A stretch of 42,834 bases of DNA from a virus. Below, one piece after another: positions 12,977-33,714 of the stretch (its first letter is position 1; every line of letters starts with the position of its first letter). The stretch is from positions 1-42,834 of IMG/VR virus record IMGVR_UViG_3300010430_000136. One strand, written 5' to 3'. The notes beneath the pieces are model-generated. The model was not told the DNA's origin. It made no database searches and saw only the letters and a program-made list of their open reading frames with translations. The translations under genes were made by a program, and so were the position numbers.

Positions 12977-12988
12977 ATAATATATACA
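12977..12988 (-). promoter_or_regulatory. Early-type promoter of the polyphosphate kinase unit
   Basis: TGTATATATTAT on the minus strand, just after the terminator at 13012-13037. A purine lies 8 bases downstream as possible start. A TGTCTCA element stands exactly 12 bases upstream (13001-13007), within a 14-base palindrome (12994-13007). Confidence 0.7.
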
Positions 12989-12993
12989 ACATA

Positions 12994-13007
12994 TGTCTCA
13001 TGAGACA
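12994..13007. repeat. 14-base palindrome upstream of the PPK1 unit promoter
   Basis: TGTCTCATGAGACA, perfectly self-complementary, between a terminator and an early-type promoter box. Half of it (TGTCTCA) recurs at the same distance from the box at 22752-22758. A binding site for a dimeric regulator is plausible. Confidence 0.6.
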
Positions 13008-13011
13008 AAAA

Positions 13012-13037
13012 ATAACCCGACCTAATGGTCGAGTTAT
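13012..13037 (-). terminator. Terminator after the 125-aa membrane protein
   Basis: 11-bp stem with one G-U pair and loop TAAT, followed on the minus strand by TTTTTTG. Overlaps the stop at 13034. Confidence 0.82.
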
Positions 13038-13411
13038 CCTGTGCGTTCATTGTCGTCTTCTTCTTCAAAACTTTCTAAGGTATCATCTATATAATACCCG
13101 AATTTATCATATAGGGTTTTAATCATTTCTGATACACTAGAGTAATTTGATAAGTAGCAAGTTAATTCCTTACCTAATAAACCTAATATAAAAGTTATTA
13201 ATAGGTATACTGAGTCTGGAAATTTCTCTCCAAACATATCTAATAAAACTGCTGTTATTAGTGTAGGTAATATTGATGATAATAAATCTTTTAATACATT
13301 AAACAATGTATCTTTAATATCTTTATTATAATATTGTCTATCCTTAGGTAGAATCTCAGCGACTAATGAACCCATAAAAGATATTATCCATAGACATGTA
13401 TAAGTCAACAT
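13034..13411 (-). CDS. Small integral membrane protein, holin-like
   Basis: 125 aa with three predicted membrane segments (about residues 3-20, 42-60 and 66-86) and a strongly acidic, charged C-terminal tail (FEEEDDNERTG). Size, topology and tail are typical of phage holins, but I cannot place it in a named holin family. It has its own late-type promoter word (13452-13463) and a terminator at its stop codon. It is divergent from another one-helix membrane protein at 13508. A role in timing lysis with the endolysin at 3463 is an inference. Confidence 0.55.
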   Translation of the reverse strand: MLTYTCLWIISFMGSLVAEILPKDRQYYNKDIKDTLFNVLKDLLSSILPTLITAVLLDMFGEKFPDSVYLLITFILGLLGKELTCYLSNYSSVSEMIKTLYDKFGYYIDDTLESFEEEDDNERTG

Positions 13412-13451
13412 AATTAGACCTCCTTCTTTGCTCTTTGTTGATATTATATCT

Positions 13452-13463
13452 TATTATATTGTT
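13452..13463 (-). promoter_or_regulatory. Late-type promoter word for the 125-aa membrane protein
   Basis: Reads AACA-ATATAA-TA on the minus strand, about 40 bases before the start of the gene at 13034-13411. Back to back with a plus-strand word at 13479-13490. Confidence 0.65.
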
Positions 13464-13478
13464 TAAATCTACCTCTGT

Positions 13479-13490
13479 AACAAAATTATA
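13479..13490 (+). promoter_or_regulatory. Late-type promoter word for the 149-aa membrane protein
   Basis: Reads AACA-AAATTA-TA and is followed by ATAAAGGAGG, so the transcript would start almost on the ribosome site. Confidence 0.7.
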
Positions 13491-13507
13491 ATAAAGGAGG
13501 AATAAAA

Positions 13508-13957
13508 ATGGAAAATTTCGTAAATGTATTAATTGTGGTAGGTTTCGTTTGTGTCTTATTTGGTGCTTATGTTTTAGCTAAAAAGACTTTTACAAAGAAA
13601 GAGGGAGAAGATGCTAAAGATATAATGAATAATGTTATGGAAGAAATGTATTCTTTCGTTAACTCTGTTCTAACTATGTCTGATGTATTAATTGTATTCA
13701 CAGCTGAAGCTATAATAGGTTCTAACCTATCTCCAGAAGATTATTCAATTGAAGATGTTATTGAAGATGTTTTAGATAAGCTTATGGAACATCTTATTCT
13801 TAATTCTCTCAAATATCTAGAAGCAAATGTATTAATTGATCGTCTTGGAAAAGATGTTGTCAAGAATGGAATTCGTATAGTTGTAACTAATCTGATTAAT
13901 AAATATTCTGATGATGTAGTTAAAACTGTTACTGATCTCCAAGATAAACTATCATAA
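13508..13957 (+). CDS. Membrane-anchored small protein, LLH-type holin-like
   Basis: 149 aa, ATG after AAAGGAGG. One N-terminal membrane helix (about residues 5-24) is followed by a soluble, acidic, helical domain with segments EDAKDIMNNVMEEMY and GIRIVVTNLINKY. The layout of a single N-terminal helix followed by a charged helical domain resembles phage holins of the LL-H family, though I cannot confirm homology. The late-type promoter word AACA-N6-TA lies directly in front of the ribosome site. A strong bidirectional terminator (13968-13996) separates it from the convergent 427-aa gene. Alternative: a membrane-anchored virion or superinfection protein. Confidence 0.5.
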   Translation: MENFVNVLIVVGFVCVLFGAYVLAKKTFTKKEGEDAKDIMNNVMEEMYSFVNSVLTMSDVLIVFTAEAIIGSNLSPEDYSIEDVIEDVLDKLMEHLILNSLKYLEANVLIDRLGKDVVKNGIRIVVTNLINKYSDDVVKTVTDLQDKLS

Positions 13958-13967
13958 TAATGAAAAG

Positions 13968-13996
13968 AATAACACCGGCTTTATGCCGGTGTTATT
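13968..13996. terminator. Bidirectional terminator between convergent genes
   Basis: Perfect 12-bp GC-rich stem (AATAACACCGGC) with a 5-base loop, A run on one side and T run on the other; separates 149-aa and 427-aa genes. Confidence 0.9.
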
Positions 13997-13997
13997 T

Positions 13998-15281
13998 TTA
14001 ATCTAATTTAAGATCATTAAGATAATCATTCACGTCACCCATATTAATATAAATATGGAAATCATATGTTATTTCTGGATCAAAGATTGAAGGTTTCAAT
14101 TTTGTAGAAGATATCCCTTCATCTAATATAGTTCCATTAGCATAGATATCTACTTTCAATCCACTCTCTAAACCTACATCATTTGGATAAACTGCTTTTA
14201 TAGCATTCTTAATCCATTCCTCATAGTCTACCAAAGTAAAATAATCTAGATACTCATCAACATTATCAAACTGAACTTGTAGTGTTCGAGCTAATATGAA
14301 TCCAGGATATTTATCTGGAGAAGGTTCAGTCTCCTTATATTCAGAAATAAAATAAGGTTCTTCAACCGTCACAGGTTCTATAGTTTCTGTCTCATTGAAA
14401 GATTCTTTTAATTGATTAGCAACTATCTCAGTAATAGTTGAACTGGAAGTGAGGAAATATTTAACTGGTATAGGATATCTAAATCTCATAATATCCGTTA
14501 CTCTATGAGCATCCTCTAATTCTTGATCTCTATTGAAATTCTCTTTTGATGGAATCTGAGATGAATCCACTTGGATATCTATAATTAAATTAGCATAAAA
14601 ATCATAGTTACCATTCACTCTATCTATCCTTGTTATAGGGTGGTTTGAATGAGAGTTCAATAAATCTAAAAATTGATCTGATTTAACATCTAATCCCTCG
14701 GTACGTGCTATATGCTTAATGTAAATGCGAGGTATTTCCGATTTAATCTTTCTTTCAATAGTATATTTAGCATTCTGTCCCATACGTCTAGTATGTACTA
14801 AATGATTATAAGTATTAAGCATTTTTCTATAAGATGATTCTACTATTAATAACTCGAAATCAGAATAGTAGTAATTACTATTAAAAGATATACTTAAATC
14901 ATTGATAGTTAATAAGGGTATAGAATATGATCCTAAAAATGAATTTTGATTAGTATCGTAAATTTGATGGGATGGCATATACTTTGTAGATTGGAAAGAT
15001 TCTGTATCTAATTCAATATCAGTATTTATAAATAAGATGGGTTTATTCTTTATACCTCTTATTGCTCTAACTTTTGTTCTAAACTCATGTTGAGTGTTTT
15101 TCCAAACTGTTCTGAAATAATCATGTGGAAAAAATGTTTTCTTATAATACTCTTCAAAGATAGATAAACTATTACTTAATGTGCAATGTACATTAAATGT
15201 TTTATCTGCTATAACTATATTACCAAATTTGTTAGATTCTTTTTTTAATGGTAGGGGGTATCCCAATATTGTATCTGACAT
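13998..15281 (-). CDS. Probable virion structural protein of unknown type
   Basis: 427 aa. The ATG at 15281 follows GAGAGGTGAT. It is a single-gene unit with a late-type promoter word (15299-15310, GACA variant) and a terminator at its end, which groups it with virion and lysis genes. The sequence is soluble, rich in Tyr/Ser/Asp/Ile, with a mixed alpha-beta centre and a C-terminal third that looks like beta strands with Thr/Pro linkers. No family was recognised. Structural role is inferred only from promoter class, length and composition. Confidence 0.6.
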   Translation of the reverse strand: MSDTILGYPLPLKKESNKFGNIVIADKTFNVHCTLSNSLSIFEEYYKKTFFPHDYFRTVWKNTQHEFRTKVRAIRGIKNKPILFINTDIELDTESFQSTKYMPSHQIYDTNQNSFLGSYSIPLLTINDLSISFNSNYYYSDFELLIVESSYRKMLNTYNHLVHTRRMGQNAKYTIERKIKSEIPRIYIKHIARTEGLDVKSDQFLDLLNSHSNHPITRIDRVNGNYDFYANLIIDIQVDSSQIPSKENFNRDQELEDAHRVTDIMRFRYPIPVKYFLTSSSTITEIVANQLKESFNETETIEPVTVEEPYFISEYKETEPSPDKYPGFILARTLQVQFDNVDEYLDYFTLVDYEEWIKNAIKAVYPNDVGLESGLKVDIYANGTILDEGISSTKLKPSIFDPEITYDFHIYINMGDVNDYLNDLKLD

Positions 15282-15298
15282 TTAATATCACCTCTCTA

Positions 15299-15310
15299 TA
15301 TTGAAATGTC
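15299..15310 (-). promoter_or_regulatory. Late-type promoter word for the 427-aa gene
   Basis: Reads GACA-TTTCAA-TA, 18 bases before the ATG and directly after the terminator at 15333-15350. Confidence 0.68.
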
Positions 15311-15332
15311 CTAATAAATAAAAAAAATAAAA

Positions 15333-15350
15333 AGAGTCCCTAAGGACTCT
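15333..15350 (-). terminator. Terminator at the end of the beta' N-half unit
   Basis: 7-bp stem AGAGTCC with loop of 4, followed on the minus strand by TTTTATTTTTTTTATT. Overlaps the TAG of the 102-aa gene. Confidence 0.85.
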
Positions 15351-15657
15351 AATCAATTATTACTAAAGTATCACATATACCATCTATAAAAACATAACCA
15401 GGGTGAGAATAAGGTATATTATGAAAAGCCATAACATCTTTTATAGCATCCGTGCTTTCTCCTATAACTCTCATATCCCAAGGAAGGTCTTTATTAGCTA
15501 ATACACATAGAGTGGTATATACTGCATTGTCTATATCATCATTACGAGCTATCATTATATCCTCAGTTATAGGATATAAGGAATCATTGAGATATTGAAG
15601 AGACGGATCCGTAAAATATAAAAGAATCCGTCCATCATAACAAATTTTATTCTCCAT
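15349..15657 (-). CDS. Hypothetical small acidic protein overlapping the beta' N-half gene
   Basis: 102 aa. Its ATG lies 11 bases inside the 3' end of the RNA polymerase beta' N-half gene, so it is very likely translated by coupling. It is acidic (many Asp, few Lys), with IDNAVYTTLCVLANKDLPW and a hydrophobic C-terminus ending in LVIID. No family was recognised. The hairpin at 15333-15350 overlaps its TAG and ends the unit. A role as an accessory factor for the polymerase is possible but unsupported beyond the overlap. Confidence 0.72.
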   Translation of the reverse strand: MENKICYDGRILLYFTDPSLQYLNDSLYPITEDIMIARNDDIDNAVYTTLCVLANKDLPWDMRVIGESTDAIKDVMAFHNIPYSHPGYVFIDGICDTLVIID

Positions 15658-17332
15658 CGTAATCTTCTAGATCTAAATCAATAACATCATCACCACTATA
15701 GATATAATCTTCCATAGACTTAGATTTCTCTGAAGCCTCATCATAAATATCTAACCATTCTGTACTATCCTCATTTGGACTAGTATTATCATGACACTCC
15801 ATAATTCTATTATATTTAGCAACATATGGATCTTTAGTATCCCATGTTTTAGTTTCAATAGAATTTATGTGAGTAAGCATTTTAGATATATCATATATTT
15901 CATACAACATGGCCAATTTATCCTTTTTAGGAGCCATACATCTATTGAATCTTCCTGTAGCTTTATCTATAATCATATAGATTGGACAGAAAACTAATTT
16001 AAATAGATTGTGATATGAGTATGGCGAATCTACGGCTAATTTCTGTGCAGTGATTGTTTCTTGATCCCCATCAAAATCGGCATTTTGTAATACTAGAATA
16101 CCATGAGGTAACAACATTGTTTTATTCTTTAAGTTCTTATGACAACCTTTAATTTTCATATAAAGAATTCCACCATATTTAATAGTAGGATTTCTATCAA
16201 TGATTACCCAAGATTCTTGAGTTTTCAAATAGATATTAATGATTGCCAGCATATCTTTATTAATATGATTACGTGATCTCATAAAGAAATCATATGCCTG
16301 AGTAAGATTAATCTTTTTCATTTGCATAATAAATGAAACTAATTCTTCTTCAAATAATTCTAGCATAGTTTGATAAGGTACTATTACTTCATGTAATTTC
16401 AAGAATGGATCTGAAGCAATAACAGCTCTACAAGTATAATCTAATCTTGAAGAACTAATATACTTCTTAAATAATCCTGTCTTTCCTCTTACAGCTAATT
16501 CAAACTCTCCCCATAGTTCTGTAAAACATTCTTGAATCTCTGTAATAATTCTAATCTTAGGTAGATCATTTTCTACATTATCCATTAGAACCATTATCTC
16601 TAAATTATCTGCGAGTTTAACTAGATTTTCATATGTTTTATTAATAGGGAATACTGTCATCTTAGAACCACTTCTTACCAATGGTCTTAGATTTGCAGAA
16701 ATAACAGGTATCTTACTAGTGAATGCTATTGATTTAGGCATTCCAGTTTTATCTGCATATAGTTCATCATAATCATCATACAGAGTCAATAGATTAATAT
16801 CACCACTTACAATAAGCTTACCTGATCTATCTATTGAATGTTTATTCTTATTCTTTAATACGTTTTTGAAATTTTTAACTTCTTTAGACATTGCATTCCA
16901 TCCATGATAAGTTAATACATGATATGGGGCTATATCTATGTAAGCTTCTTTATCCATATTAGCAGCAACAAACTTAACAACACCACCACAGGTAATACAT
17001 ACTTTACCCTCATTAATTGCACCAACAGTACAACCTTTTGGACAAGAGTATTCACGTATATCTGGATTAAACATATCTGGACCAAATTTAGGTGAATGTA
17101 TTCCTCCTGCGGTTTTCTCTTTTTTAGTATTTGTTGAATCAGGATTTGTAATCATAAATGATTCACCTGATGCTAATCTTTGTTTACATCTTTTATCCAA
17201 TGAAATCGGTCGTACTTCAAAAGATGCGGTCTTTCTTCTCGGTCTAAATATAATTTCGTCCGGTTCATACTTAAACTGTTTATAGTTATCTCTATTTATT
17301 TTGTGACCTTCTGGGAAATTTTCTCTATTCAT
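15647..17332 (-). CDS. RNA polymerase beta'-like subunit, N-terminal half
   Basis: 561 aa, carrying the catalytic part of a multisubunit RNA polymerase. Landmarks in order: a zinc ribbon with C97, C101, C112 and C115; RLDYTCRAVI (296-305) followed by LKLHEVIVP and LELF, as in the bacterial 'DYSGRSVI...LELF' region; RNPTIKYGG; and the absolutely conserved NADFDGDQ (417-424), whose Asp419, Asp421 and Asp423 bind the catalytic magnesium. It stops about 140 residues after this loop; the rest of beta' is encoded by the gene at 22787-24031. It is the third gene of a unit starting at an early-type promoter (18315-18326), unlike the C-half and beta, which follow late-type words. Split beta' is typical of phiKZ/AR9-type phages. 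Confidence 0.95.
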   Translation of the reverse strand: MNRENFPEGHKINRDNYKQFKYEPDEIIFRPRRKTASFEVRPISLDKRCKQRLASGESFMITNPDSTNTKKEKTAGGIHSPKFGPDMFNPDIREYSCPKGCTVGAINEGKVCITCGGVVKFVAANMDKEAYIDIAPYHVLTYHGWNAMSKEVKNFKNVLKNKNKHSIDRSGKLIVSGDINLLTLYDDYDELYADKTGMPKSIAFTSKIPVISANLRPLVRSGSKMTVFPINKTYENLVKLADNLEIMVLMDNVENDLPKIRIITEIQECFTELWGEFELAVRGKTGLFKKYISSSRLDYTCRAVIASDPFLKLHEVIVPYQTMLELFEEELVSFIMQMKKINLTQAYDFFMRSRNHINKDMLAIINIYLKTQESWVIIDRNPTIKYGGILYMKIKGCHKNLKNKTMLLPHGILVLQNADFDGDQETITAQKLAVDSPYSYHNLFKLVFCPIYMIIDKATGRFNRCMAPKKDKLAMLYEIYDISKMLTHINSIETKTWDTKDPYVAKYNRIMECHDNTSPNEDSTEWLDIYDEASEKSKSMEDYIYSGDDVIDLDLEDYDGE

Positions 17333-17358
17333 TAAATAGATTCTCCTTCATTGATATT

Positions 17359-18000
17359 TTAGACCTCATTGGGATCTTTAGCTTTTCGAGCTTTCGTAGG
17401 AAACATACTCGATGACATAGGTTGTTTGATGATAGACATAGAAGTAGCTGCCATGATTGAAATATCATTCATTGATGTAGAGGTTTCAATAAGTATTTCT
17501 TCACATATATCGTCAGTTAGTTCAATATTTTCACATGAGGTAATTTTGAAATTAACATGACATGATTTAATATCTTTTTCATCCACATCATAACTAATGT
17601 CAGTATTTAATAATACTTTACCTAAATGCTCCTTTACACAAACTGTAGGATCTTTTACATATGGGATTGATCCAATATGTAAATCTGAGCAACTATATAT
17701 CTCTAAATAAGATCTATCTAGCATAAATATTCTAATTTTGATAGCGGTATTTTTATTATCTTGAAGATACTTCTCTAATTTTTGAAAAGCCTTCATCAAA
17801 ACAAACCCTGAATATTCTCTAAATTTAGTAAATACTCGAGTCTGTTTAATATCTAATTTTTCTAAAAGAAGACATTTTTCAATAATTTCAGCTTCTTTGG
17901 TATAAACTTCTTTAAATCCATCATCTAAATAAAACTTTAATACAGGAATAGGTGTATATGATGGATCGTATTTCTTAAGAGTTTTGATAGTTGTATTCAT
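17359..18000 (-). CDS. Hypothetical protein in the beta' N-half unit
   Basis: 213 aa, ATG after AAAGGAGAATATATCTA. Mixed alpha-beta N-terminal two thirds with basic helices (RIFMLDRSYLEIYS), then an acidic segment (ENIELTDDICEEILIETS) and a Met/Ser-rich C-terminus (MAATSMSIIKQPMSSSMFPTKARKA). No family was recognised. It sits between the small 84-aa gene and the polymerase subunit gene, with 26 bases to the latter, so all are likely made together. Its role is unknown; a transcription-related function is only a guess from position. Confidence 0.75.
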   Translation of the reverse strand: MNTTIKTLKKYDPSYTPIPVLKFYLDDGFKEVYTKEAEIIEKCLLLEKLDIKQTRVFTKFREYSGFVLMKAFQKLEKYLQDNKNTAIKIRIFMLDRSYLEIYSCSDLHIGSIPYVKDPTVCVKEHLGKVLLNTDISYDVDEKDIKSCHVNFKITSCENIELTDDICEEILIETSTSMNDISIMAATSMSIIKQPMSSSMFPTKARKAKDPNEV

Positions 18001-18016
18001 TAGATATATTCTCCTT

Positions 18017-18271
18017 TTAATATTTTAAAGTAGTTTTATAAAGTCTTTCCAAATGAAGTTTATTTGAAATAACTTTATCGTCACTAGTTATAACCTTAAA
18101 GTTTTCAATACCATTCTCTTGTAATATTTTTAAAGCCTTATTACTCATTTCTTTTTTTGATGTATAAGAGAAACTATTGTTACCTCTTTCATCTATAAAC
18201 ATTCGGGGATTCTTTAAATGTAATCCCCCTTCATAACCATCGTGGATTAATATCCAAAAACTATAACCCAT
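18017..18271 (-). CDS. Hypothetical small protein, first gene of the beta' N-half unit
   Basis: 84 aa, ATG after AAAGGAGGAATAAATTT. The start MGYSFWILIHDGYEGG is followed by a Lys-rich helix and a strand-loop-helix ending KTTLKY. It is not a membrane protein. The early-type promoter TGTATATATTAT at 18315-18326 lies about 45 bases upstream, and the following genes are closely spaced. No family was recognised. Confidence 0.72.
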   Translation of the reverse strand: MGYSFWILIHDGYEGGLHLKNPRMFIDERGNNSFSYTSKKEMSNKALKILQENGIENFKVITSDDKVISNKLHLERLYKTTLKY

Positions 18272-18314
18272 AAATTTATTCCTCCTTTTAAATAGTTTAA
18301 TTTATATCAATATT

Positions 18315-18326
18315 ATAATATATACA
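18315..18326 (-). promoter_or_regulatory. Early-type promoter of the beta' N-half unit
   Basis: TGTATATATTAT on the minus strand, 7 bases before an A as possible start, about 45 bases before the 84-aa gene and directly after the cassette terminator. Confidence 0.7.
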
Positions 18327-18337
18327 GGAAAAAATAA

Positions 18338-18354
18338 GAGGGCGAATTGCCCTC
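18338..18354 (-). terminator. Terminator at the end of the early cassette
   Basis: 6-bp GC-rich stem GAGGGC/GCCCTC with a 5-base loop, followed on the minus strand by TTATTTTTT. It sits directly in front of the next early-type promoter. Confidence 0.8.
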
Positions 18355-18372
18355 ATTATTTTAAAGATGATA

Positions 18373-19026
18373 TTATAATGATATCATCTTCTTAATCTTT
18401 TGCCATCCTGTAGTAGGTTTTTCTGGATTTTCTTCAGGTTCTTTATACCGTTGATCATGGACTTTCTTAATAAAATCCCCATCCTCTTCTTTAGGTAAAT
18501 CTCCTGTATAATCAAAGTATTTATTAATTAATGTTTTATGGAAATCAGTAAACAGTTCTAATCCTTCATCATGTCTGATAATATGGTGCAGGAAAGGAAC
18601 TGCGACACCACTAATATCTATTCTTTCAGATATATATTTTATTAGATACATTGATGTCTCTAATGATTCCATATTCTTTATACTTTCATATAGATTCATG
18701 AAAGCTTTATATTGTAAATCATTATCTTTTAAGTTAACTGTTGTTGTTTCGAAATTACATAAAGCCTCACTAATAATCCTCTTAGTACTGATGATACCCA
18801 TACTATTTGATACTTCAATAAGAAGATTAAAAGTAATTATCTCTGGTGTTGACCAAAGTAATTCATATAATACTTTTTCAGTAATTTCTTCAATACTTGG
18901 TCTTATATTAATAGTGGACAGTAAGAATTTCTCTACTTCCTCATAATAAATTCTATCAATATAATCAACAATATGCTGAGAAGTGATAGAATTTAATACT
19001 AGACCTGGTATGTGCTGTGACTTCAT
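18373..19026 (-). CDS. Hypothetical protein, last gene of the ten-gene early cassette
   Basis: 217 aa, ATG after TAAGGAGG. Predicted mostly helical (long Leu/Ile/Glu-rich stretches), acidic, with a basic Lys-rich tail (GWQKIKKMISL) that could contact membrane or nucleic acid. It starts 4 bases after the stop of the preceding gene. A terminator (18338-18354) follows within 35 bases and ends the cassette. No family was recognised. Confidence 0.75.
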   Translation of the reverse strand: MKSQHIPGLVLNSITSQHIVDYIDRIYYEEVEKFLLSTINIRPSIEEITEKVLYELLWSTPEIITFNLLIEVSNSMGIISTKRIISEALCNFETTTVNLKDNDLQYKAFMNLYESIKNMESLETSMYLIKYISERIDISGVAVPFLHHIIRHDEGLELFTDFHKTLINKYFDYTGDLPKEEDGDFIKKVHDQRYKEPEENPEKPTTGWQKIKKMISL

Positions 19027-19030
19027 AATT

Positions 19031-19627
19031 TTATTCCTCCTTAGTATCTAATTCATGTTTTAAATTCATTAATTTTATATTAATATAAGATATTCTAGGT
19101 AGTTTACCTGAGATATTTTCCCAGTTAGAATTTCTATCCTTTGGATCAAAACGAACTCTAGCTATGGATTTAGATATCTGGAAAGATACTATACCCGGTA
19201 TAGTGTATATAACATAATCTTCTTGATCAGAAAAGCACCCTTCTGATATTTCGAAGATATCCTCTGGGAATAATTTTATCCAATCTGCTAAAGTTATATC
19301 TTCCTGAGTCTTCCAAGTTTTCTCAAACTTATAAGCATTACGAATCATATTTTCTACTTGTAGATAATCCATTACTTCAAGACGTTTTGTTTTTATGACA
19401 CCATAGGATGCTTCTGATGGAATATAAGTATTTTGAACGTATCCTTTTGCGGTTTTTATCTGGGTTGGTATAATACCACTAATAATATACCCCTCATCAG
19501 AAATCAGATAACCTATATCTTTTATAACTATATCTACTAAAAATGATGCCTGTTTATTTCTCCATTTAATATAGATATCTTTTATAGTATAATATAATCT
19601 TTTAAAATATAACTTAATTAAAATCAT
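19031..19627 (-). CDS. Hypothetical protein with basic N-terminus
   Basis: 198 aa, ATG after TAGGAGG. The first 30 residues are strongly basic and aromatic (KLYFKRLYYTIKDIYIKWRNK), suggesting membrane-surface or nucleic-acid contact. The rest is a soluble mixed fold with SYGVIKTKRLEVMDYLQVE. It lies 13 bases after the zinc miniprotein gene (19641-19784) and 4 bases before the next gene. No family was recognised. Confidence 0.75.
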   Translation of the reverse strand: MILIKLYFKRLYYTIKDIYIKWRNKQASFLVDIVIKDIGYLISDEGYIISGIIPTQIKTAKGYVQNTYIPSEASYGVIKTKRLEVMDYLQVENMIRNAYKFEKTWKTQEDITLADWIKLFPEDIFEISEGCFSDQEDYVIYTIPGIVSFQISKSIARVRFDPKDRNSNWENISGKLPRISYINIKLMNLKHELDTKEE

Positions 19628-19640
19628 ATTTTTATTCCTC

Positions 19641-19784
19641 CTAGTTTATATCTACATAATTATTCTTCGTACAAAATCCTCGGGTATGATGATCATCGTA
19701 ACAATCATCACAGACCCAACATTTACAATGTGAACAAAAGTTCATAGCTTTATCTCTACATTCTACACATATTTTATCATCCAT
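19641..19784 (-). CDS. B-box-like zinc-finger miniprotein
   Basis: 47 aa, too short for most gene finders. The ATG at 19784 follows TAGGAGATAATATTT and the frame ends TAG at 19641. Eight cysteines and two histidines fill residues 6-38: C6-x2-C9-x7-C17-x2-C20-x-C22-x2-C25-x2-C28-x3-H32-H33-x4-C38. The spacing C-x2-C-x7-C-x2-C-x4-C-x2-C-x3-H is that of a B-box zinc finger, a two-zinc protein-interaction fold best known from eukaryotic TRIM proteins, with relatives in prokaryotes. It sits inside the early cassette. It probably acts as a small protein-binding factor against a host target; this is inference. Confidence 0.75.
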   Translation of the reverse strand: MDDKICVECRDKAMNFCSHCKCWVCDDCYDDHHTRGFCTKNNYVDIN

Positions 19785-19811
19785 AAATATTATCTCCTAA
19801 CAGGATACTCT

Positions 19812-20681
19812 TCAGTAAGATCTCTCATTTCTCCAAAATTCAATTCTCATACGAACTTCTCTAATACCAATTTTATTACTAGAATAATAACTGGCCACTG
19901 AAGGTATCTTTGCAACTAGTTGAGTAGAAGTTATATCTTCTACATCTAAATAACCAAAATAAAAGTCTATAGCTTTTTGACGCATAGACTCTTTATCAAA
20001 TGTTCCTCGTGTAGTCTTTAACAACTCCCAAGGATTAATATTAGGATATACTGAAGAGATGATATCATGTAGAGTTAATTGATTCTTATTATATATCTGC
20101 ATCATTTTCCATCCTTTAAGATCATTTGTTCTTATATCTTTAGCTGTTCTGGGATTAAAATCCATTACAAATAAGGTAAAGTATTTACAAAGATCTTTTA
20201 ATTCATAATCTTTAATCATAGAATGAAAATTATTAGGATATCTATGCAGATAAGACATAACAACTCTCTTATAGACGTCTACTGCATCCGACTCAACATA
20301 GGTAAATTCATTTGTTTTATATATTTCTTTATCAAATAATTCTCTAAACGCAGCTACACTTATTTGTGGATGTAAAGTACTTTCTCTCTTATATGATTTA
20401 TTCTTCTTCTGTGAATAGAAGAACTCATATCCTATACCACCACGATATCTAACAGTTACGAATAGAGTATCTACTTTGTCTGTAACTTCGATTTCTCTAA
20501 TGAACTCTACAGGATGATATCTTTGGACATGTTCTTTAAACTTACCAATAAATGTTTCTAATGTTAAACTAACATCATTAACTTCAGTTCGATATAATAC
20601 ATTCATACCACTTGAATAAGTGGTTTCCTCTAATAATAAACTATCGAACCTTACTACGTCTAACGCTTTTACTTTTTTCAT
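19812..20681 (-). CDS. Hypothetical protein of the early cassette
   Basis: 289 aa, ATG after TAGGAGGAATATAATT, the stock leader of this cassette. It is basic with many aromatic residues, a mixed fold in the first half (strands around residues 60-90, RYRGGIGYEFFYSQ) and helices in the second (LKDLCKYFTLFVMDF, WELLKTTRGTFDKESMRQKAIDFYFGYL). It ends in TGA, so the standard code applies. No catalytic motif or family was recognised. Confidence 0.78.
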   Translation of the reverse strand: MKKVKALDVVRFDSLLLEETTYSSGMNVLYRTEVNDVSLTLETFIGKFKEHVQRYHPVEFIREIEVTDKVDTLFVTVRYRGGIGYEFFYSQKKNKSYKRESTLHPQISVAAFRELFDKEIYKTNEFTYVESDAVDVYKRVVMSYLHRYPNNFHSMIKDYELKDLCKYFTLFVMDFNPRTAKDIRTNDLKGWKMMQIYNKNQLTLHDIISSVYPNINPWELLKTTRGTFDKESMRQKAIDFYFGYLDVEDITSTQLVAKIPSVASYYSSNKIGIREVRMRIEFWRNERSY

Positions 20682-20694
20682 AATTATATTCCTC

Positions 20695-21309
20695 CTAAAT
20701 TAAGTTATTCTTAAAAATAAACCAAATGATATCAGATGTTTCACACTTAGATTCTACTAGTTCATTATATGTGAAAGGTTTATCTTTACTTAAAGTCTCT
20801 AAGAATCTATCTACCCCATCCTCACATGGATTATATGGTTCTATGTGTTCTTTGTAGGTAAGCTTTCTCTTACTAATTTCATCTCTCCACTGAAGTTCAT
20901 CTTTAAATTCTCTAATGAAGTCTTCTGAAAGTTTCTGATATCGATTAATACAAGCCCAATCAATTTTATCTTTAAATTCTCTAATAAAATCTTCTGATAG
21001 TTCTTGACGCATACTAACAACCTGCCAATCAACTTCATCTTTAAATTCTTTAATAAAATCTTCTGTTAGAGTTTGACATTCGCTAATCCATTTCCAAATA
21101 ACGTCATCTTTAAATTCTCTAATAAAATCTTCTGTTAGAGTTTGACATTCGCTAATCCATTTCCAAATAACGTCATCTTTAAATTCTCTAATAAAATCTT
21201 CTGATAGTTCTTGGTATTCACTGATCCATCCCCATTTAACTTCATCTTTAAATTCTTCTCTAATACCTATCACTACATCATCTTTAAATATTAATAAATC
21301 TTTTTTCAT
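20695..21309 (-). CDS. Repeat protein with 23-residue SEDFIREFKD units
   Basis: 204 aa. After about 34 residues come five tandem copies of a 23-residue unit (LSEDFIREFKDDVIWKWISE-type), plus partial units at each end. Each predicts as a pair of short helices, giving a solenoid. The same repeat style occurs, as I recall it, in hypothetical proteins of large phages and giant viruses. Two copies are almost identical at DNA level (69-base period, 21059-21190), pointing to recent duplication and likely length variation. The C-terminal 60 residues are non-repetitive. It is probably a protein-binding scaffold; no enzymatic motif was seen. Same leader AGGAGGAATATAATTATG as its neighbours. Confidence 0.8.
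   Translation of the reverse strand: MKKDLLIFKDDVVIGIREEFKDEVKWGWISEYQELSEDFIREFKDDVIWKWISECQTLTEDFIREFKDDVIWKWISECQTLTEDFIKEFKDEVDWQVVSMRQELSEDFIREFKDKIDWACINRYQKLSEDFIREFKDELQWRDEISKRKLTYKEHIEPYNPCEDGVDRFLETLSKDKPFTYNELVESKCETSDIIWFIFKNNLI
21059..21196 (-). repeat. 69-base tandem DNA repeat inside the repeat-protein gene
   Basis: Two successive 69-base units are nearly identical at the nucleotide level (units beginning near 21059 and 21128), while the other units of the same gene have diverged, suggesting recent duplication of one 23-codon unit. Confidence 0.85.
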
Positions 21310-21336
21310 AATTATATTCCTCCTAGATTGATAATA

Positions 21337-21675
21337 TTATTTGATTAATTCCATATTATTCATAATACCTTTAGTTCTCATAATCGATCTATACACTATA
21401 GTACATAATCGAGATATACTTAATTCATACTCTTCCACCAAGTTCATGTAAGTTGTAGTCTTATATATCTTATTGAAATTTAAGTAATCACACATAATTT
21501 GAAAATCTCTTTCTTTCAAAGTATATTTGTGAGGATCTCTAACAAACTCTAATCTGATTCTTGCTTTATTTTTCATAAAGATGATTAGTTCATCATCAGT
21601 AAAATGCTTACCAGCTTCACTACTAAATAAATATCGTTTACTATCTTTTATAATAATCATAACTTTCTTCTTCAT
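21337..21675 (-). CDS. Hypothetical basic protein
   Basis: 112 aa. The ATG follows GGAGATAAACGT, which overlaps the 3' end of the upstream gene (4-base gap between stop and start), so it is likely coupled. Lys/Arg-rich, with a short strand at the start (KKVMIIIKDSKRYLF) followed by helices (EYELSISRLCTIVYRSIMRTKG). It could be a small nucleic-acid-binding protein, but no known fold was recognised. Confidence 0.75.
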   Translation of the reverse strand: MKKKVMIIIKDSKRYLFSSEAGKHFTDDELIIFMKNKARIRLEFVRDPHKYTLKERDFQIMCDYLNFNKIYKTTTYMNLVEEYELSISRLCTIVYRSIMRTKGIMNNMELIK

Positions 21676-21679
21676 ACGT

Positions 21680-22183
21680 TTATCTCCAGTTTCTCAAGAA
21701 TTCAATAACTTCCTCTTTAGTCCCTATACCTTCGCAGTTAATCATACCTAATTCAATTTGCTCAATAAATAACCAGGCCTCCATATGATTTTCATAATTA
21801 CTAAAAGTAAATGGGGGATTATTATTCCTATTTCTACTTTCAGAATGATATAACCAAGCTTTTAGAGCTACCCGATAATAGATATGCTCATATACTTCCC
21901 AAAGCTCTTTATATTCTTCTCTAACCTTCTCAATAGTAGTTAATCCTTTAGCTAGTTGACCTTCACCTGGTTTACGTTTACTATATAAAGTGTCTCTAAT
22001 AGGTAATCCTAATATCCTTCTGGTATTTGTGTCTTGTTTATTTTGTAAAACTTGGTTTCGAATACGACCACGTTTGGTAAATGGTGGACGGATACCACCA
22101 TAAGCACTTTCACCTTCTACTATATCAAGTTCACGATCACCAATTTTTGATAGTCTGGATAATTTCTTTTCTTTCTTATTCAT
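21680..22183 (-). CDS. Hypothetical basic protein
   Basis: 167 aa when started at the ATG at 22183, directly behind the stock leader TAGGAGGAATATAATT; the longer in-frame start at 22213 has no such site and would overlap the upstream gene. The first 75 residues are Arg/Lys/Gly/Pro-rich and probably disordered (RPPFTKRGRIRNQVLQNKQ), the rest helical with Trp and Tyr (LWEVYEHIYYRVALKAWLY). No family was recognised. The basic disordered start could bind RNA or DNA; this is inference. Confidence 0.75.
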   Translation of the reverse strand: MNKKEKKLSRLSKIGDRELDIVEGESAYGGIRPPFTKRGRIRNQVLQNKQDTNTRRILGLPIRDTLYSKRKPGEGQLAKGLTTIEKVREEYKELWEVYEHIYYRVALKAWLYHSESRNRNNNPPFTFSNYENHMEAWLFIEQIELGMINCEGIGTKEEVIEFLRNWR

Positions 22184-22205
22184 AATTATATTCCTCCTAA
22201 ATAAT

Positions 22206-22376
22206 TTATCCATGAAAGTATCTTAAAAGAATACCTATCAATAATCCATTATAAATAATTATTGGGTATAGATATACTTTAGAATAATTTGTATCATTTA
22301 ATAGTTTAACGTATAGATTTATATTAATTCCGAAATTAATTAATATAGCTAATACTATAATATGTGTGGTATCCAT
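22206..22376 (-). CDS. Two-helix membrane miniprotein
   Basis: 56 aa from the ATG at 22376, with GAGGA about 6 bases upstream inside the end of the preceding gene. A TTG start at 22391 is also in frame but lacks a ribosome site. Two membrane helices (about residues 5-25 and 34-52) are joined by a short polar loop with Asn, Lys and Tyr. Small early membrane proteins of phages often alter the host membrane or block superinfection, but nothing here shows which. No family was recognised. Confidence 0.65.
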   Translation of the reverse strand: MDTTHIIVLAILINFGININLYVKLLNDTNYSKVYLYPIIIYNGLLIGILLRYFHG

Positions 22377-22378
22377 TG

Positions 22379-22546
22379 TTAGTCCTCGCAATCTTTCTTC
22401 TTAGACTTTTCCAATCCTTCTTTATTAATACACCTTATAAATATATCGATATCATTCTTAGATTTATTTAAAAACTCATCAAGTGTTAATGATGTTTGTG
22501 ATGTATTAAACATTCTTAATAATATTCGAGGTAATGTATTATCCAT
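22379..22546 (-). CDS. Hypothetical small protein (55 aa)
   Basis: 55 aa with ATG at 22546 and TAA at 22379, fitting exactly between its neighbours (3 bases after one stop, 2 before the next start). The residues read as a helical protein with a charged Lys-rich end (LEKSKKKDCED) that resembles the GLEKPKKKKKK end of the upstream 43-aa protein: both contain K-E-G-L-E-K, suggesting a shared tail. The ribosome site is weak (AGAAGAAAGGGTTGGG region upstream), so coupling with the upstream gene is likely. Confidence 0.6.
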   Translation of the reverse strand: MDNTLPRILLRMFNTSQTSLTLDEFLNKSKNDIDIFIRCINKEGLEKSKKKDCED

Positions 22547-22549
22547 AAT

Positions 22550-22681
22550 CTATATACCCAACCCTTTCTTCTTTTTCTTCTTAGGTTTTTCTAATCCTTC
22601 TTTCTTACAATATTTCTTACAGTCTTCTTTTTTACATTTAGACCATTTCTTTCCACAATAACATTTATCTTCTTTAGACAT
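22550..22681 (-). CDS. Cys/Lys-rich zinc miniprotein, SEC-C-like
   Basis: 43 aa, the first gene of the early cassette, with ATG at 22681 after TAGGAGGAATAAAATT and TAG at 22550. It holds five cysteines in the order C7-Y-C9-G...C16...C21...C25, inside a Lys-rich chain. The C-x-C-G-K-K-x6-C start resembles the SEC-C zinc motif (CPCGSGKKYKxC) found at the end of SecA and in many small proteins. It is probably a tiny zinc-bound adaptor. The early-type promoter at 22728-22739 is about 45 bases upstream, giving this gene the strongest position in the unit. Confidence 0.65.
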   Translation of the reverse strand: MSKEDKCYCGKKWSKCKKEDCKKYCKKEGLEKPKKKKKKGLGI

Positions 22682-22727
22682 AATTTTATTCCTCCTAGTA
22701 TAATATAAGTTAATTTCTTCTATTATT

Positions 22728-22739
22728 ATAATATATACA
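22728..22739 (-). promoter_or_regulatory. Early-type promoter of the ten-gene cassette
   Basis: TGTATATATTAT on the minus strand. TGTCTCA stands 12 bases upstream (22752-22758), as at the PPK1 unit. It follows the beta' C-half terminator and precedes the 43-aa zinc protein. Confidence 0.7.
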
Positions 22740-22761
22740 CACTATATACTGTGAGACAGAT

Positions 22762-22787: not shown

Positions 22788-24031
22788 TATTTACTTAAAT
22801 ACATAAACTTCGTTAATTCATCTAATTTGATTTCTCTTAATCTAATCGTACTATCATGGAACTTCTTCATTGAAGCATTTAGCCTTGAATTAGGTATTAC
22901 TGGGAATGTAGCACCTACATGAGTTCGATCTAATCTATATGGCATATCACCATAACAAATATTACAATACTCAGTACCCTTTGTTTCACATAGTCCTGGA
23001 GAACGACGTTTAACTATTTTGCCTAAATAAGATGTAACTGTTTTTGGTGTTAATAATTTAGGTTTACCATTTTCCATAATATATTTATATTTACCTAAAT
23101 CAGTTATATTCTCAGGAGTAACTAGGACTTCAATATATTTCTTCGTGCCACAATCGGATCCTCTTTCATCTAAAGTTAAATCAAGATATAAACTATAATA
23201 TTTCTTAGTAGAATATCCTGATATACCAGTACCTTTACCTTTGGCATACGCACCAGTAACAAAAGAATCATTATTTGCGGAAACATCTTCCTTTGATATA
23301 CCGTCATCATAATTACTTCTTACGATTCTATAACGCTTACCATCTGGATCCGTGTTATCTAATACGGGACCTTTTGAGATAAATGTCGATTTAAAATGAT
23401 TATAAATATCCAAACCACAACCAGATTCATAGAAAGCTAAAGCCGGTGAATCAATCTTCTTCATTTGTTCATAAGCATGATCAGTAATTTGTTTTTCTAA
23501 CTGAGCCATTAAAACAATATTACCATCTTCTAATTCATCAAAATTATCAGTGAATAATTTATCTTTAAGCTTACGAGTAGAAGGTGGTAAAGACATGATA
23601 CTTAGATCAATAGATGGATTAATTATATGTGATAATGGTCCACCGAATAGATATTCGAATCTATCTATGAAAGTAAATACAGGTAAAGGTTTAAGAATTC
23701 CTTCTAGAAGTAAATATGCTATACCATCATATACTTTACCTATTAATTTCTTATCAGCGACTTTGTTAATATAACCAAAACCATCCATATGTTCTATAAG
23801 TAATTTATTGAATATAAAGATACCTATAGTTGTAGTTGAGTTAGGTTTAATATCCTTATACTGTTCTGGTCCAATTGATATGATATCCGATCCATCATAT
23901 CTAGGTGGACCTTTTTTAGTTCGTGAGAATAATTTAATTAATTTACTTCTTGTCAACTTATAATTATCTTCTTCAAATATTTCAAAAAATATCTTTTCAG
24001 CATCTTTTCCTCTAAGATCTCTACCTTTCAT
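22787..24031 (-). CDS. RNA polymerase beta'-like subunit, C-terminal half
   Basis: 414 aa. It carries the part of beta' that follows the catalytic loop: a bridge-helix-side segment with YESGCG (around 201-206); the trigger-loop region (about 255-290, with AKGKGTGISGYSTKKYY, where bacteria have ARKGL..TA.SGYLTR); and the four-cysteine zinc site C294 (in DCGT), C348, C356 and C359 (RSPGLCETKG...CNICYGD, as in bacterial RSVLTC...GVCxxCYG). It complements the N-half at 15647-17332. It is the third gene of a late-type unit after two structural-like proteins (8-base gap), followed by a terminator overlapping its stop. Late co-expression with virion genes suggests it may be part of a packaged (virion) polymerase. 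Confidence 0.94.
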   Translation of the reverse strand: MKGRDLRGKDAEKIFFEIFEEDNYKLTRSKLIKLFSRTKKGPPRYDGSDIISIGPEQYKDIKPNSTTTIGIFIFNKLLIEHMDGFGYINKVADKKLIGKVYDGIAYLLLEGILKPLPVFTFIDRFEYLFGGPLSHIINPSIDLSIMSLPPSTRKLKDKLFTDNFDELEDGNIVLMAQLEKQITDHAYEQMKKIDSPALAFYESGCGLDIYNHFKSTFISKGPVLDNTDPDGKRYRIVRSNYDDGISKEDVSANNDSFVTGAYAKGKGTGISGYSTKKYYSLYLDLTLDERGSDCGTKKYIEVLVTPENITDLGKYKYIMENGKPKLLTPKTVTSYLGKIVKRRSPGLCETKGTEYCNICYGDMPYRLDRTHVGATFPVIPNSRLNASMKKFHDSTIRLREIKLDELTKFMYLSK

Positions 24032-27047: not shown

Positions 27048-27067
27048 TAGTTCCTCTCTCCTTTCAG

Positions 27068-27079
27068 AACTATTATATA
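27068..27079 (+). promoter_or_regulatory. Degenerate late-type promoter word for the 209-aa gene
   Basis: Reads AACT-ATTATA-TA on the plus strand, one mismatch from the word. It overlaps the opposing word at 27076-27087, so the pair would form a compact divergent promoter. Confidence 0.35.
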
Positions 27080-27087
27080 TAGTTGTT
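27076..27087 (-). promoter_or_regulatory. Late-type promoter word for the unit ending in the beta' C-half
   Basis: Reads AACA-ACTATA-TA on the minus strand, about 12 bases before the AAAGGAGAG of the 717-aa gene. Confidence 0.68.
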
Positions 27088-28431: not shown

Positions 28432-28433
28432 AC

Positions 28434-30860: not shown

Positions 30861-30878
30861 TTATATTTCCTCCCATTT

Positions 30879-32210
30879 TTAATCTTCAGTAGTAGTTTCT
30901 TCGACAACAAGTTCTTCATATTCTAAGATCTCATCATCTTCTGTTCGTAATACATTAATGATAGATATATTCTGTACAAGATGTGCAACTAATTCATTTA
31001 AGAAATCTGTTCCATCACCTTCCCATTCTCCATCATCTACAATAATACAAGGTTTATCATCTTCATTTGTACCAAAATAAACATCTTTAATAGATGTACC
31101 CAAATCAACTGCATGTGTCAATGACAACATAGCAAAATCATTATCATGGTCTTTGGTTAAGTAAATATTTAGATTTTCTGAATCATCAAAATCCTCTTCG
31201 GGATTATCATCATACTCCTCTTCGTGGTTTTCTGAATCGTCTTCATCTTCATATGAATCATCATACTCACCTTGGGTTTCATCTTCTTCCTCATCCATAA
31301 GAGTATTAATATCTATTGGATCTTGTGGTAGAAAATGTAAAGTTGGTTCTTCTTGAACTTCTTCAAGAGTATCTTCCATCTCTACTTCTTCATGGAAAAT
31401 ATTAAGTGGTTCTTTTTGAGAAACATCGTGTTTCAATTCCTTTAATACTTCTTCTGAAACTCCATGACTTAATCTCATTTTTCTGTAATTTCCCTCCTTC
31501 CTTAATTTTCTTTCGATAGAGATTGGTAAATATTCTTTTCCGCATTTAGTACATATAAGCATATGATAATTCTCATCATATTCTAATGAACCATTACAGA
31601 TTTTAATATCTCCATCTTTAATTTTCTTTGGTCGGTCTTTTTTTGTGGCTTTCTTTTTAAGAATTTTCTTGTCACAATATATTCTTCGACCTTCCAATTG
31701 TACCATATCTGAACCATCTAAAATTTTGATTAGATTATTTTCATCTAATCCATAATTATAAATGTTTTTCAGCGACATATCCACTAGTAACATATCATAC
31801 TCTTCTACTAATGAATCTTGAATGTGCATAACTTCTTCTATGTATTCATGAAAATGTTCTACATCTTTGAAGTTTTTTAATTTTTGTTGAATACTATAGA
31901 CCCCTTGAGGAGCCACATAATACACATTTACATAAGAATGTATTAATTGAGAATACCACATATCCCTAAGTCCATCTAACTGACCAAGATCATCCATGGC
32001 TATCTTATATACTATATCCTTATATTTAGGATGTTTAACAGTAAGTACATTTGTACCAAGCATAATCTCTTCGAAACCATACTCTTTTAAAATTTTCATC
32101 GTTTTCTTAGCTTTTTTGTGGTTATCACTACCACTCCTAATTATGTTCAATTGCATCATAACGAAATTCGCTGGCAATAATGAACGTTCATCTAAAGCTT
32201 TATTAATCAA
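30879..32210 (-). CDS. Kinase-fold-like protein with acidic C-terminal region
   Basis: 443 aa from a TTG start at 32210 (AAGGAGG, 9 bases upstream). The N-terminal 170 residues carry marks of a protein-kinase-like fold: VYKIAMDD with K69, D144...N149 (MLLVDMSLKNIYNYG, like HxDxxxxN) and D165 in IKILDGSD (where kinases have DFG). Gly-rich loop and HRD histidine are not clear, so it may be atypical or inactive. Residues 205-223 form a partial zinc knuckle (C205, C220, C223). From about residue 270 to 350 the chain is extremely acidic. It heads an early-type unit (promoter 32265-32276) followed by the basic protein. Kinase assignment is moderate to low confidence. Confidence 0.5.
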   Translation of the reverse strand: MINKALDERSLLPANFVMMQLNIIRSGSDNHKKAKKTMKILKEYGFEEIMLGTNVLTVKHPKYKDIVYKIAMDDLGQLDGLRDMWYSQLIHSYVNVYYVAPQGVYSIQQKLKNFKDVEHFHEYIEEVMHIQDSLVEEYDMLLVDMSLKNIYNYGLDENNLIKILDGSDMVQLEGRRIYCDKKILKKKATKKDRPKKIKDGDIKICNGSLEYDENYHMLICTKCGKEYLPISIERKLRKEGNYRKMRLSHGVSEEVLKELKHDVSQKEPLNIFHEEVEMEDTLEEVQEEPTLHFLPQDPIDINTLMDEEEDETQGEYDDSYEDEDDSENHEEEYDDNPEEDFDDSENLNIYLTKDHDNDFAMLSLTHAVDLGTSIKDVYFGTNEDDKPCIIVDDGEWEGDGTDFLNELVAHLVQNISIINVLRTEDDEILEYEELVVEETTTED

Positions 32211-32264
32211 ATATATAGTCCTCCTTTTATTATTAATTGTAGTTAATTTCCTTTTATCCCATTT

Positions 32265-32276
32265 ATAATATATACA
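32265..32276 (-). promoter_or_regulatory. Early-type promoter of the kinase-like/basic protein unit
   Basis: TGTATATATTAT on the minus strand, 7 bases before an A, about 55 bases before the TTG start at 32210. Confidence 0.7.
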
Positions 32277-32296
32277 ACTAAAAGATAATCAGAAAT

Positions 32297-33034
32297 TTAA
32301 TAGTATAATCCTCTTTGGAGGTCTGTTTGTGTTACGCCATTCTGTAAACGTTTTGTAGACTTCTTTATTTTCTTTTCTACATCTTTTAAACGTTTCTCAA
32401 TATTCTTAATATGATCAGGAGCATTCTCTAGATTTAACATGTCATCATTCTTGATACATTTACGGAGAGCTTTATTTTCATCTTTGATATCCTCATGTCT
32501 TTTGATAAGTTTATCTGCAAAATCAGATAAGTCTCTCTTAACGAAAATGTTATCACTATAAACAAAACCTTTCTTACGATACTTCTTTATAAGTTTATTT
32601 TGTTTCTTAGCAAACTTTCGTTCAGCTTCATTATATTCTTCTAATGTCTGAGGATCTTCTTTCTTCATATACCTCTTAAAAGCTTTATCTTTCTCTTCAG
32701 AAACTTTCTCACGAAATTCTATATTCTCAGCAATTTCTATATAAGAAGGCATATTAACTAAATGTAAAATATTTTCTCTAAATTGTTTCTTATTATCATC
32801 TGATATATAATGATGATAATGGAAATAGATATATGAGTCTAAATGTTTTACACAGAATTTCAAGAAAGCTTTCTCGTCCTCTATAAGATTTATATAATGC
32901 TTCTTCTTTTTCTTTCCTGATTTATATCTCTTTACTTTTCTTCCTCTAGTCTTATTAATAAACTGAGTATTCTTATTAAATCCTAATTCTTCTTTAATAG
33001 CTGCTAAATGTTCTGCAGTAACTTTTCTAGCCAC
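32297..33034 (-). CDS. Hypothetical Lys-rich coiled-coil protein
   Basis: 245 aa, overlapping the end of the RNase H gene by 8 bases. It is very Lys-rich with long charged helices, especially the last 80 residues (KRHEDIKDENKALRKCIK...KRLKDVEKKIKKSTKRL), which read as coiled coil. The first 45 residues contain a basic patch (RGRKVKRYKSGKKKKKH). Nucleic-acid binding is likely on composition. No family was recognised. Translational coupling to RNase H suggests linked function. Confidence 0.72.
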   Translation of the reverse strand: MARKVTAEHLAAIKEELGFNKNTQFINKTRGRKVKRYKSGKKKKKHYINLIEDEKAFLKFCVKHLDSYIYFHYHHYISDDNKKQFRENILHLVNMPSYIEIAENIEFREKVSEEKDKAFKRYMKKEDPQTLEEYNEAERKFAKKQNKLIKKYRKKGFVYSDNIFVKRDLSDFADKLIKRHEDIKDENKALRKCIKNDDMLNLENAPDHIKNIEKRLKDVEKKIKKSTKRLQNGVTQTDLQRGLYY

Positions 33035-33608
33035 GACATACCTCCCCTGCTAATTTATCAGCTTCTTTATTTCCTAGGATTAAACTTTTGGCTGTATCTT
33101 TATTTATCTTTAATCCTTGTTTTGCAAATTTCTCAATAACTCTATTAACATCTTTAGTTTTCTTTATACTTAAATGTGAGTTAATATGAACATATCTCAC
33201 ATTAGTTCTCAATGAAATAAAGTCTTTATGAATCCTCTTAATAATATCCTGATTCTTATAAGCTTCTTTCTTCTTATCTTTCTTGCGCCAGGTATCTTTA
33301 TAAGGATCGACTTTATCATTTCTAATATTTTTATTAAAGTATTTAATAAATCGCTCTATAGCTTGGATAGAATACTTAGAATCAGATACTATTAATATAT
33401 CTGTATCATAACTATAATTACCAACCTTTTTAAAAGCTATTTCAATACCTCTAAGTTCACCAATATTGTTGGTTCCTTTTTTAGTTGTTTTACTATATTC
33501 ATCTCTAGTTAAATTCTTAGCATCATAGATAATTGCAGCTGATCCAGCTACACTATTATCATGATTTATAGAACCATCTGTAAAAATAATTAATCTTGGA
33601 GCATACAT
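33027..33608 (-). CDS. Ribonuclease HI
   Basis: 193 aa. RNase HI cleaves the RNA strand of RNA-DNA hybrids, for example removing primers or R-loops. The four acidic active-site residues are all present in the standard order: D11 (FTDGS), E51 (NIGELRGIEIA), D76 (IVSDSKYS) and D184 (GNKEADKLA), with VHINSHL before the last. It is longer than E. coli RNase HI (155 aa) by a Lys-rich insertion around residues 95-130. It has a good ribosome site (GGGGGAG) and follows a 16-codon leader frame behind an early-type promoter. It may serve replication of the phage DNA. Confidence 0.92.
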   Translation of the reverse strand: MYAPRLIIFTDGSINHDNSVAGSAAIIYDAKNLTRDEYSKTTKKGTNNIGELRGIEIAFKKVGNYSYDTDILIVSDSKYSIQAIERFIKYFNKNIRNDKVDPYKDTWRKKDKKKEAYKNQDIIKRIHKDFISLRTNVRYVHINSHLSIKKTKDVNRVIEKFAKQGLKINKDTAKSLILGNKEADKLAGEVCRG

Positions 33609-33610
33609 AA

Positions 33611-33661
33611 TTAACTCCCCCTTCGTAATTTCTCTTTATGTTTTTCTAATTGTTTTTTCAT
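33611..33661 (-). CDS. Possible 16-aa leader peptide upstream of RNase H
   Basis: A 16-residue frame (MKKQLEKHKEKLRRGS) with AAGGAG upstream of its ATG at 33661. Its TAA lies 2 bases before the RNase H start and its last codons contain the RNase H ribosome site (GGGGGAG), so it may couple translation of RNase H. It follows the early-type promoter at 33703-33714. Very basic. Could be chance; low confidence. Confidence 0.4.
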   Translation of the reverse strand: MKKQLEKHKEKLRRGS

Positions 33662-33702
33662 AAAATAATTTCTCCTTAAATATTTATAGTCTATACACTA
33701 TT

Positions 33703-33714
33703 ATAATATATCCA
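33703..33714 (-). promoter_or_regulatory. Early-type promoter of the RNase H unit
   Basis: TGGATATATTAT on the minus strand, one change from the common box, between the end of the 191-aa gene and the leader peptide at 33661. Confidence 0.62.

Follow-up and report, generated by a model that had tools for sequence, protein, structure and literature searches.

The window, i.e. the whole stretch of DNA analysed here, comprises the 42,834 bases of IMG/VR record IMGVR_UViG_3300010430_000136 and has a G+C content of 28.9 %. For its middle part (12000–24000), a close DNA match to known phages was absent among 50,697 phage records, and a search of the window found neither tRNAs nor Rfam families. Judging by the RNA polymerase subunits that it encodes, the window appears to stem from a relative of the AR9/PBS1-type giant phages. 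Two further records were used for comparison, i.e. G001 (IMGVR_UViG_3300013947_000019; 259,863 bases, 36.9 % G+C), found via the large RNA polymerase (RNAP) subunit, and G002 (IMGVR_UViG_3300010163_000007; 133,339 bases, 45.5 % G+C), found by scanning viral contigs for the box described below together with a ribosome-binding site. The predicted genes relevant here, sorted into units behind a putative early box or a putative late word, are the following:

10353–12317, minus strand: polyphosphate kinase PPK1, early-box unit; four PP_kinase domains (Pfam).
15647–17332, minus strand: non-virion RNAP beta' N-part, 561 aa, early-box unit; Pfam RNA_pol_Rpb1_2, PDB 7s01/7s00, AR9 g270.
22787–24031, minus strand: virion RNAP subunit, 414 aa, late unit; phrog_2962, AR9 g264.
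30879–32210, minus strand: 443-aa protein of unknown family, early-box unit; conserved in G001 and G002.
33027–33608, minus strand: RNase H, early-box unit; Pfam RNase_H, E 3e-16.
37653–41873, minus strand: virion RNAP beta subunit, 1406 aa, presumed box reader, behind a late word; phrog_3148, AR9 g189.

The top PDB matches of the 15647–17332 product were 7s01 and 7s00 (E about 5e-24), which are structures of the AR9 non-virion polymerase, and its AR9 counterpart g270 is labelled as a non-virion RNAP subunit. The AR9 counterparts of the 37653–41873 and 22787–24031 products, g189 and g264, are both labelled as virion RNAP subunits. These two, like a beta' N-part on a separate contig (G008, see below), are predicted virion-type RNAP subunits. 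A PDB search with both products gave no AR9 chain among the matches, as expected if the non-virion enzyme alone has been solved. The phiR1-37 counterpart of the 37653–41873 product is annotated as a phage structural protein in its own record, and the AR9 polymerase proteins are about 25–35 % identical to those of the window.

PPK1 is full-length, with orthologues in G001 and G002 at 41–42 % identity, likewise behind early boxes; it also occurs in a few other phage records (about 30–35 % identity), while tblastn gave no counterpart in AR9. The product of 30879–32210 had been called ‘kinase-like’ in the preliminary description, a label that is unsupported, as Pfam and PDB sequence searches yielded no family or structure match.

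The same description had noted five near-identical boxes in intergenic gaps of the minus strand, and all five are indeed intergenic, four being exact copies of TGTATATATTAT (12977–12988, 18315–18326, 22728–22739 and 32265–32276) and one reading TGGATATATTAT (33703–33714). With the downstream purine, the elements are:

12970–12988, minus strand: early box TGTATATATTAT, 6 nt and purine A at 12970 (putative start); heads the 12347–12937/PPK1 unit.
18308–18326, minus strand: early box TGTATATATTAT, 6 nt and G at 18308; heads the 18017/17359/non-virion RNAP beta' N-part unit.
22721–22739, minus strand: early box TGTATATATTAT, 6 nt and A at 22721; heads the ten-gene cassette 22681–18373.
32258–32276, minus strand: early box TGTATATATTAT, 6 nt and G at 32258; heads 30879–32210.
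33696–33714, minus strand: early box variant TGGATATATTAT, 6 nt and G at 33696; heads a 16-codon ORF and RNase H.

The core TATATATTATA, present in every exact box, is an A+T-rich, conserved stretch of some 10 nt whose centre lies near −10, taking the putative start as +1 and hence −18/−17 as the two bases adjoining the core. A purine had been placed 7–9 bases downstream; its position can now be narrowed to the 7th base after the box, which is A, G, A, G and G in the five cases (spacer and purine ATTTAT-A, AATATT-G, AATAAT-A, AAATGG-G and AATAGT-G). From box to start codon, the putative 5' leaders measure 33, 37, 40 and 48 nt, with 35 nt to the 16-codon ORF before RNase H. This ORF (MKKQLEKHKEKLRRGS, 33661 to about 33611, minus strand) has its own ribosome site. 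The suggestion that the boxes mostly lie behind terminators stood for three of them, each preceded by a hairpin with a predicted energy between −17 and −22 kcal/mol, but not for those at 32265 and 33703, where the values are about −5 to −6 kcal/mol.

At a G+C content of 29 %, such boxes might be chance words in A+T-rich intergenic DNA, and allowing two mismatches in fact gave no excess in the window (44 matches vs a mean of 52 expected). Near-matches are therefore uninformative at this base composition and, since the loosened box loses its signal, we accepted as evidence only exact copies in their context. The exact counts, however, exceed the Markov nulls more than 15-fold, with four exact boxes vs about 0.13–0.25 expected (order 2–4, both strands of the window), and position and strand are uniform. 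The form TG[TG]ATATATTAT(6N)R was seen five times vs 0.10–0.18 expected under Markov nulls for the window. In a weight matrix built from PBS1, G001 and G002, the four exact boxes ranked first (scores 19.6–16.6); as the shuffle null of this matrix was broad (mean best 15.8, largest 18.7), we relied on counts, location and orthology. Two candidates were rejected, i.e. ATATTATA alone as a signal (24 seen vs 28 expected) and an AR9-only matrix, which left the window boxes below the top and scored one intragenic site higher, the low scores being due to a differing prefix (see below). Given that the element is also conserved at orthologous units, including those of the 45 % G+C relative, and that the orthologue and G008 comparisons described below refute it, an origin by chance is hardly credible.

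TATATATTATA(5N)R was found at 19 sites in G001, 18 of them intergenic (0.5–0.75 expected), and at 17 sites in G002, 16 of them intergenic (0.1–0.2 expected); a third uncharted relative has 31 copies. Persistence of the core in a genome of 45 % G+C rules out base composition as its cause. G002 encodes the same polymerases at 34–40 % identity and was recognised only after box-based retrieval; the two smaller RNAP proteins retrieved no related loci when used as queries. TATATATTATA is common to AR9, PBS1, G001, G002, G008, G007, G024, MarsHill and LPJP1, and the box core is frequent in G024, MarsHill, LPJP1, JD-Fnp1 and PBS1.

G001 and G002 both encode counterparts of four of the five units, at roughly 30–42 % protein identity, and in each case a box stands at the head. 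For PPK1, the G002 box lies 65 nt upstream, and the G001 box at 170516 stands before small genes leading to PPK1. The non-virion RNAP beta' gene has a box 62 nt upstream in G002 and the variant TATATACTATA two genes upstream in G001. Orthologues of 30879–32210 follow a box at 24 nt in G002 and TATATACTATA at 26 nt in G001, and those of RNase H follow boxes at 14 and 22 nt in the two relatives. The units of the non-virion RNAP beta' N-part and of RNase H are box-headed in PBS1/AR9 too. For the remaining unit, the ten-gene cassette 22681–18373, no counterparts were found in the relatives. Neither an exact nor a TATATAYTATA box lies ahead of the virion and virion-RNAP gene counterparts in G001 and G002.

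A second word, AACA(6N)T[AG], occurs at 11 intergenic sites in the window, all in sense orientation to the next gene and none antisense only. At isolated gene starts of the window, AACA(6N)TA was found in 8 of 19 cases vs 2 for each control word. As in AR9, late words precede virion and virion-RNAP genes. Individual sites in the window are:

3418–3429, plus strand: late word AACATTTAAGTA, ahead of the endolysin-like gene 3463–4638 (endolysin/amidase PHROGs).
8479–8490, minus strand: late word AACATTCTCATA, ahead of 4672–8460.
27076–27087, minus strand: late word AACAACTATATA, ahead of the virion unit 24894–27047/24040/virion RNAP 22787.
35096–35107, minus strand: late word AACATTATAGTA, ahead of 34349–35068.
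41890–41901, minus strand: late word AACAATCCTATA, ahead of the virion RNAP beta gene.

The statement that virion-like genes lack the box is correct for the genuine element; a single degenerate look-alike, TATATATAATA (with its purine at 27065), occurs in the gap before the orthologue of AR9 g260 (virion), just past the late word. Here, at 27062–27087 of the minus strand, AACAACTATATA overlaps the look-alike ahead of the virion unit. The look-alike could be due to chance or represent a decayed tandem promoter.

The preliminary description had further proposed that the two words divide the window by function, and this division was found again on a contig outside its data. G008 (IMGVR_UViG_3300010430_000057; 53,637 bases) was retrieved because it bears the box. 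In tetranucleotide composition it lies closer to the window (distance 0.086) than one half of the window does to the other (0.119), its genes are the counterparts of other G001 regions, and its nucleotide similarity to the window is almost wholly confined to the stretches from promoter to ribosome site. G008 probably belongs to the phage of the window or to a sister phage. All five boxes on G008 head genes, including a unit with the non-virion RNAP beta' C-part and a helicase, while the counterparts of the portal, virion RNAP beta' and major head genes carry AACA(6N)TA instead of the early box. Among the isolated gene starts of the window and G008, eight have only the early box, 21 only the late word, 16 neither and none both. 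One early unit on G008 contains an internal late word before SbcC, an arrangement that would resemble the ‘continuously expressed’ class of AR9.

To compare gene classes, AR9 genes marked as virion or virion-RNAP were set against AR9 genes of known non-virion function, and the best-matching genes of the window, G001 and G002 were scored for a box ahead of them or of the unit to which they belong. When any one mismatch was permitted, 12/29 non-virion vs 2/26 virion orthologues had a box (P=0.005), and both virion exceptions trace to the single look-alike at 27065, which shares its gap with a perfect late word. With the TATATAYTATA form, which was chosen after seeing the data, the counts were 12/29 vs 0/26 (P=1.4e-4); since orthologues across genomes are not independent, these P values serve as guides. 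A detectable box was absent for 17 of the 29 non-virion orthologues in these three genomes. In G001 and G002 taken together, all seven non-virion RNAP genes lie in box units, vs none of the seven virion RNAP genes. The element, its spacing and location, the conservation of the units and the classes of the flanking genes are direct observations of the present comparison.

The closest known system is that of AR9, where early promoters determined by differential RNA-seq read AAATATATATTAT-(6N)-G, are active early and insensitive to chloramphenicol, and function without the host RNAP, and where late promoters read AACA-(6N)-TA/G (PMC5312081). As the preliminary description had noted, the core of the boxes resembles this early consensus, and the match to the measured element extends to the ten-base core and the spacing. 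Comparison with the AR9 and PBS1 records (KU878088 and MF360957) revealed the same core TATATATTAT, mostly followed by A, the same 6-nt spacer to a purine, often with T at −1, and the same intergenic location before non-virion RNAP and RNase H genes, paired with AACA(6N)TA. The late word of AR9, AACA(6N)T followed by A or G before non-early genes, was likewise found in the window and repeated on G008. In contrast, +1 is G in AR9, whereas A is as frequent as G here (window and sister contig mostly A). The AR9 record marks early promoters before g270 (non-virion RNAP beta') and g241 (RNase H), the orthologues of box-headed genes. The one before g270 (KU878088, 227688–227700) is annotated on the wrong strand, apparently a slip, since the consensus reads only on g270's own strand.

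Similar architectures are known from phiKZ and phiR1-37, i.e. an A+T-rich element of about 10 nt near −10, with the start 6 nt downstream and the virion RNAP as presumed reader (PMC7598289, PMC4848604). Their consensus differs, however, the window core being nearly absent from phiR1-37 (two matches), and the late word of phiKZ is unrelated to that of the window. For the early promoters of the clade of the window, nothing was found in the literature. In the AR9 study (PMC5312081) and a 2020 review (PMC7598289), the virion RNAP was inferred to be the early-promoter reader without purification of the enzyme. Taken together, we consider it very probable that the boxes are early promoters read by the multisubunit virion RNAP of the phage itself; by analogy with AR9, the polymerase, the transcription start and the timing would be those of its early class.

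Host RNAP might instead read the boxes early in infection as −10 elements of sigma-A promoters, as TATTAT lies 6–7 nt before the start, i.e. at the right distance from the purine, and matches TATAAT at five of six positions; early use of the host polymerase is also common among other phages. Yet the best −35 match at 16–18 nt averages 2.75 of six for the exact boxes of the window and 2.60 on G008, vs 2.59 for random sequence. Slightly raised values in G001 (3.05) and AR9 (3.22) carry little weight in this respect, as the AR9 early promoters are independent of host RNAP (PMC5312081). Moreover, a sigma-70 scan gave no excess of sites and the phage encodes polymerases of its own. With no −35 standing out in the clade and a conserved unit of 11 bases, longer than a −10 hexamer, recognition by host sigma-A alone is unlikely, and we regard this explanation as improbable.

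In our judgement, it is even less probable that the non-virion polymerase starts from the boxes, or a phage regulator binds to them, at some other stage of infection. In favour of this view, knowledge of the boxes is limited to sequence, and in phiKZ the polymerase form serving the middle class is not settled (PMC7598289). Nevertheless, the corresponding AR9 promoters fire early and are insensitive to chloramphenicol (PMC5312081), the late genes of the window already have a word of their own, and the spacing to a purine fits a start site, not an operator.

If the boxes are early promoters of the virion RNAP, this enzyme would enter the cell with the DNA, bind TATATATTATA at about −16 to −6, which TG precedes at −18/−17 in this clade, and start on the purine after six bases. 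The first transcripts would then encode the non-virion RNAP (beta' N-part in the window, beta' C-part on the sister contig) as well as genes for takeover and replication support. Newly made non-virion polymerase would in turn read AACA(6N)TA before the virion, lysis and virion-polymerase genes, so that the next particle would be loaded with the box-reading enzyme. Both halves of this loop lie in the window, with a box before the non-virion RNAP beta' gene and late words before the virion RNAP beta gene and the 22787–24031 unit. In AR9, the late word works only with uracil in the template. No homologue of the AR9 uracil-glycosylase inhibitor or of the deoxyribonucleotidase g151 was found in the window, G001, G002 or G008, all partial pieces, and the inhibitor is small. 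On this reading, the two-polymerase logic of AR9, i.e. virion enzyme to non-virion enzyme to virion-enzyme genes, would extend by sequence alone to an uncultivated clade, with TATATATTATA(5N)R and AACA(6N)TA as usable markers for early and late units, respectively.

The boxes differ from those of AR9 mainly in the prefix. All five window boxes have TG at −18/−17, and on G008 G occupies −17 in five of five and T occupies −18 in four of five boxes, whereas AR9 has AA (A in 17/18 full-core sites at −18 and 15/18 at −17), as does MarsHill. The strict AR9 early consensus, with AAA directly upstream of the core, is therefore absent from the window, which reads (N)TG. T is found at −17 in 11 of 20 G024 boxes, and C at −17 in the three sites read in the Fusobacterium phage JD-Fnp1. 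As the early consensus is said to vary between phages (PMC7598289), the TG prefix limits any claim of identity with AR9, not class membership. This TG pair in place of AA is a modest sequence novelty, the rest extending the known AR9 switch. Considering that the AR9 enzyme is reported to be intolerant of box changes (PMC5312081), one might speculate, albeit with some doubt, that the pair is a clade-specific discriminator read by the virion RNAP of each phage. If true, it would stop related virion polymerases from firing one another's early genes, and mapping the pair onto covarying virion RNAP residues would be feasible. Ten phages sharing one core with clade-specific upstream bases make the specificity of the reader directly testable.

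The window also contains an A+T-rich gap of 740 bases (36911–37652) without a clear gene or Rfam match, which harbours several hairpins and a perfect 28-nt direct repeat (37287–37314 and 37354–37381).
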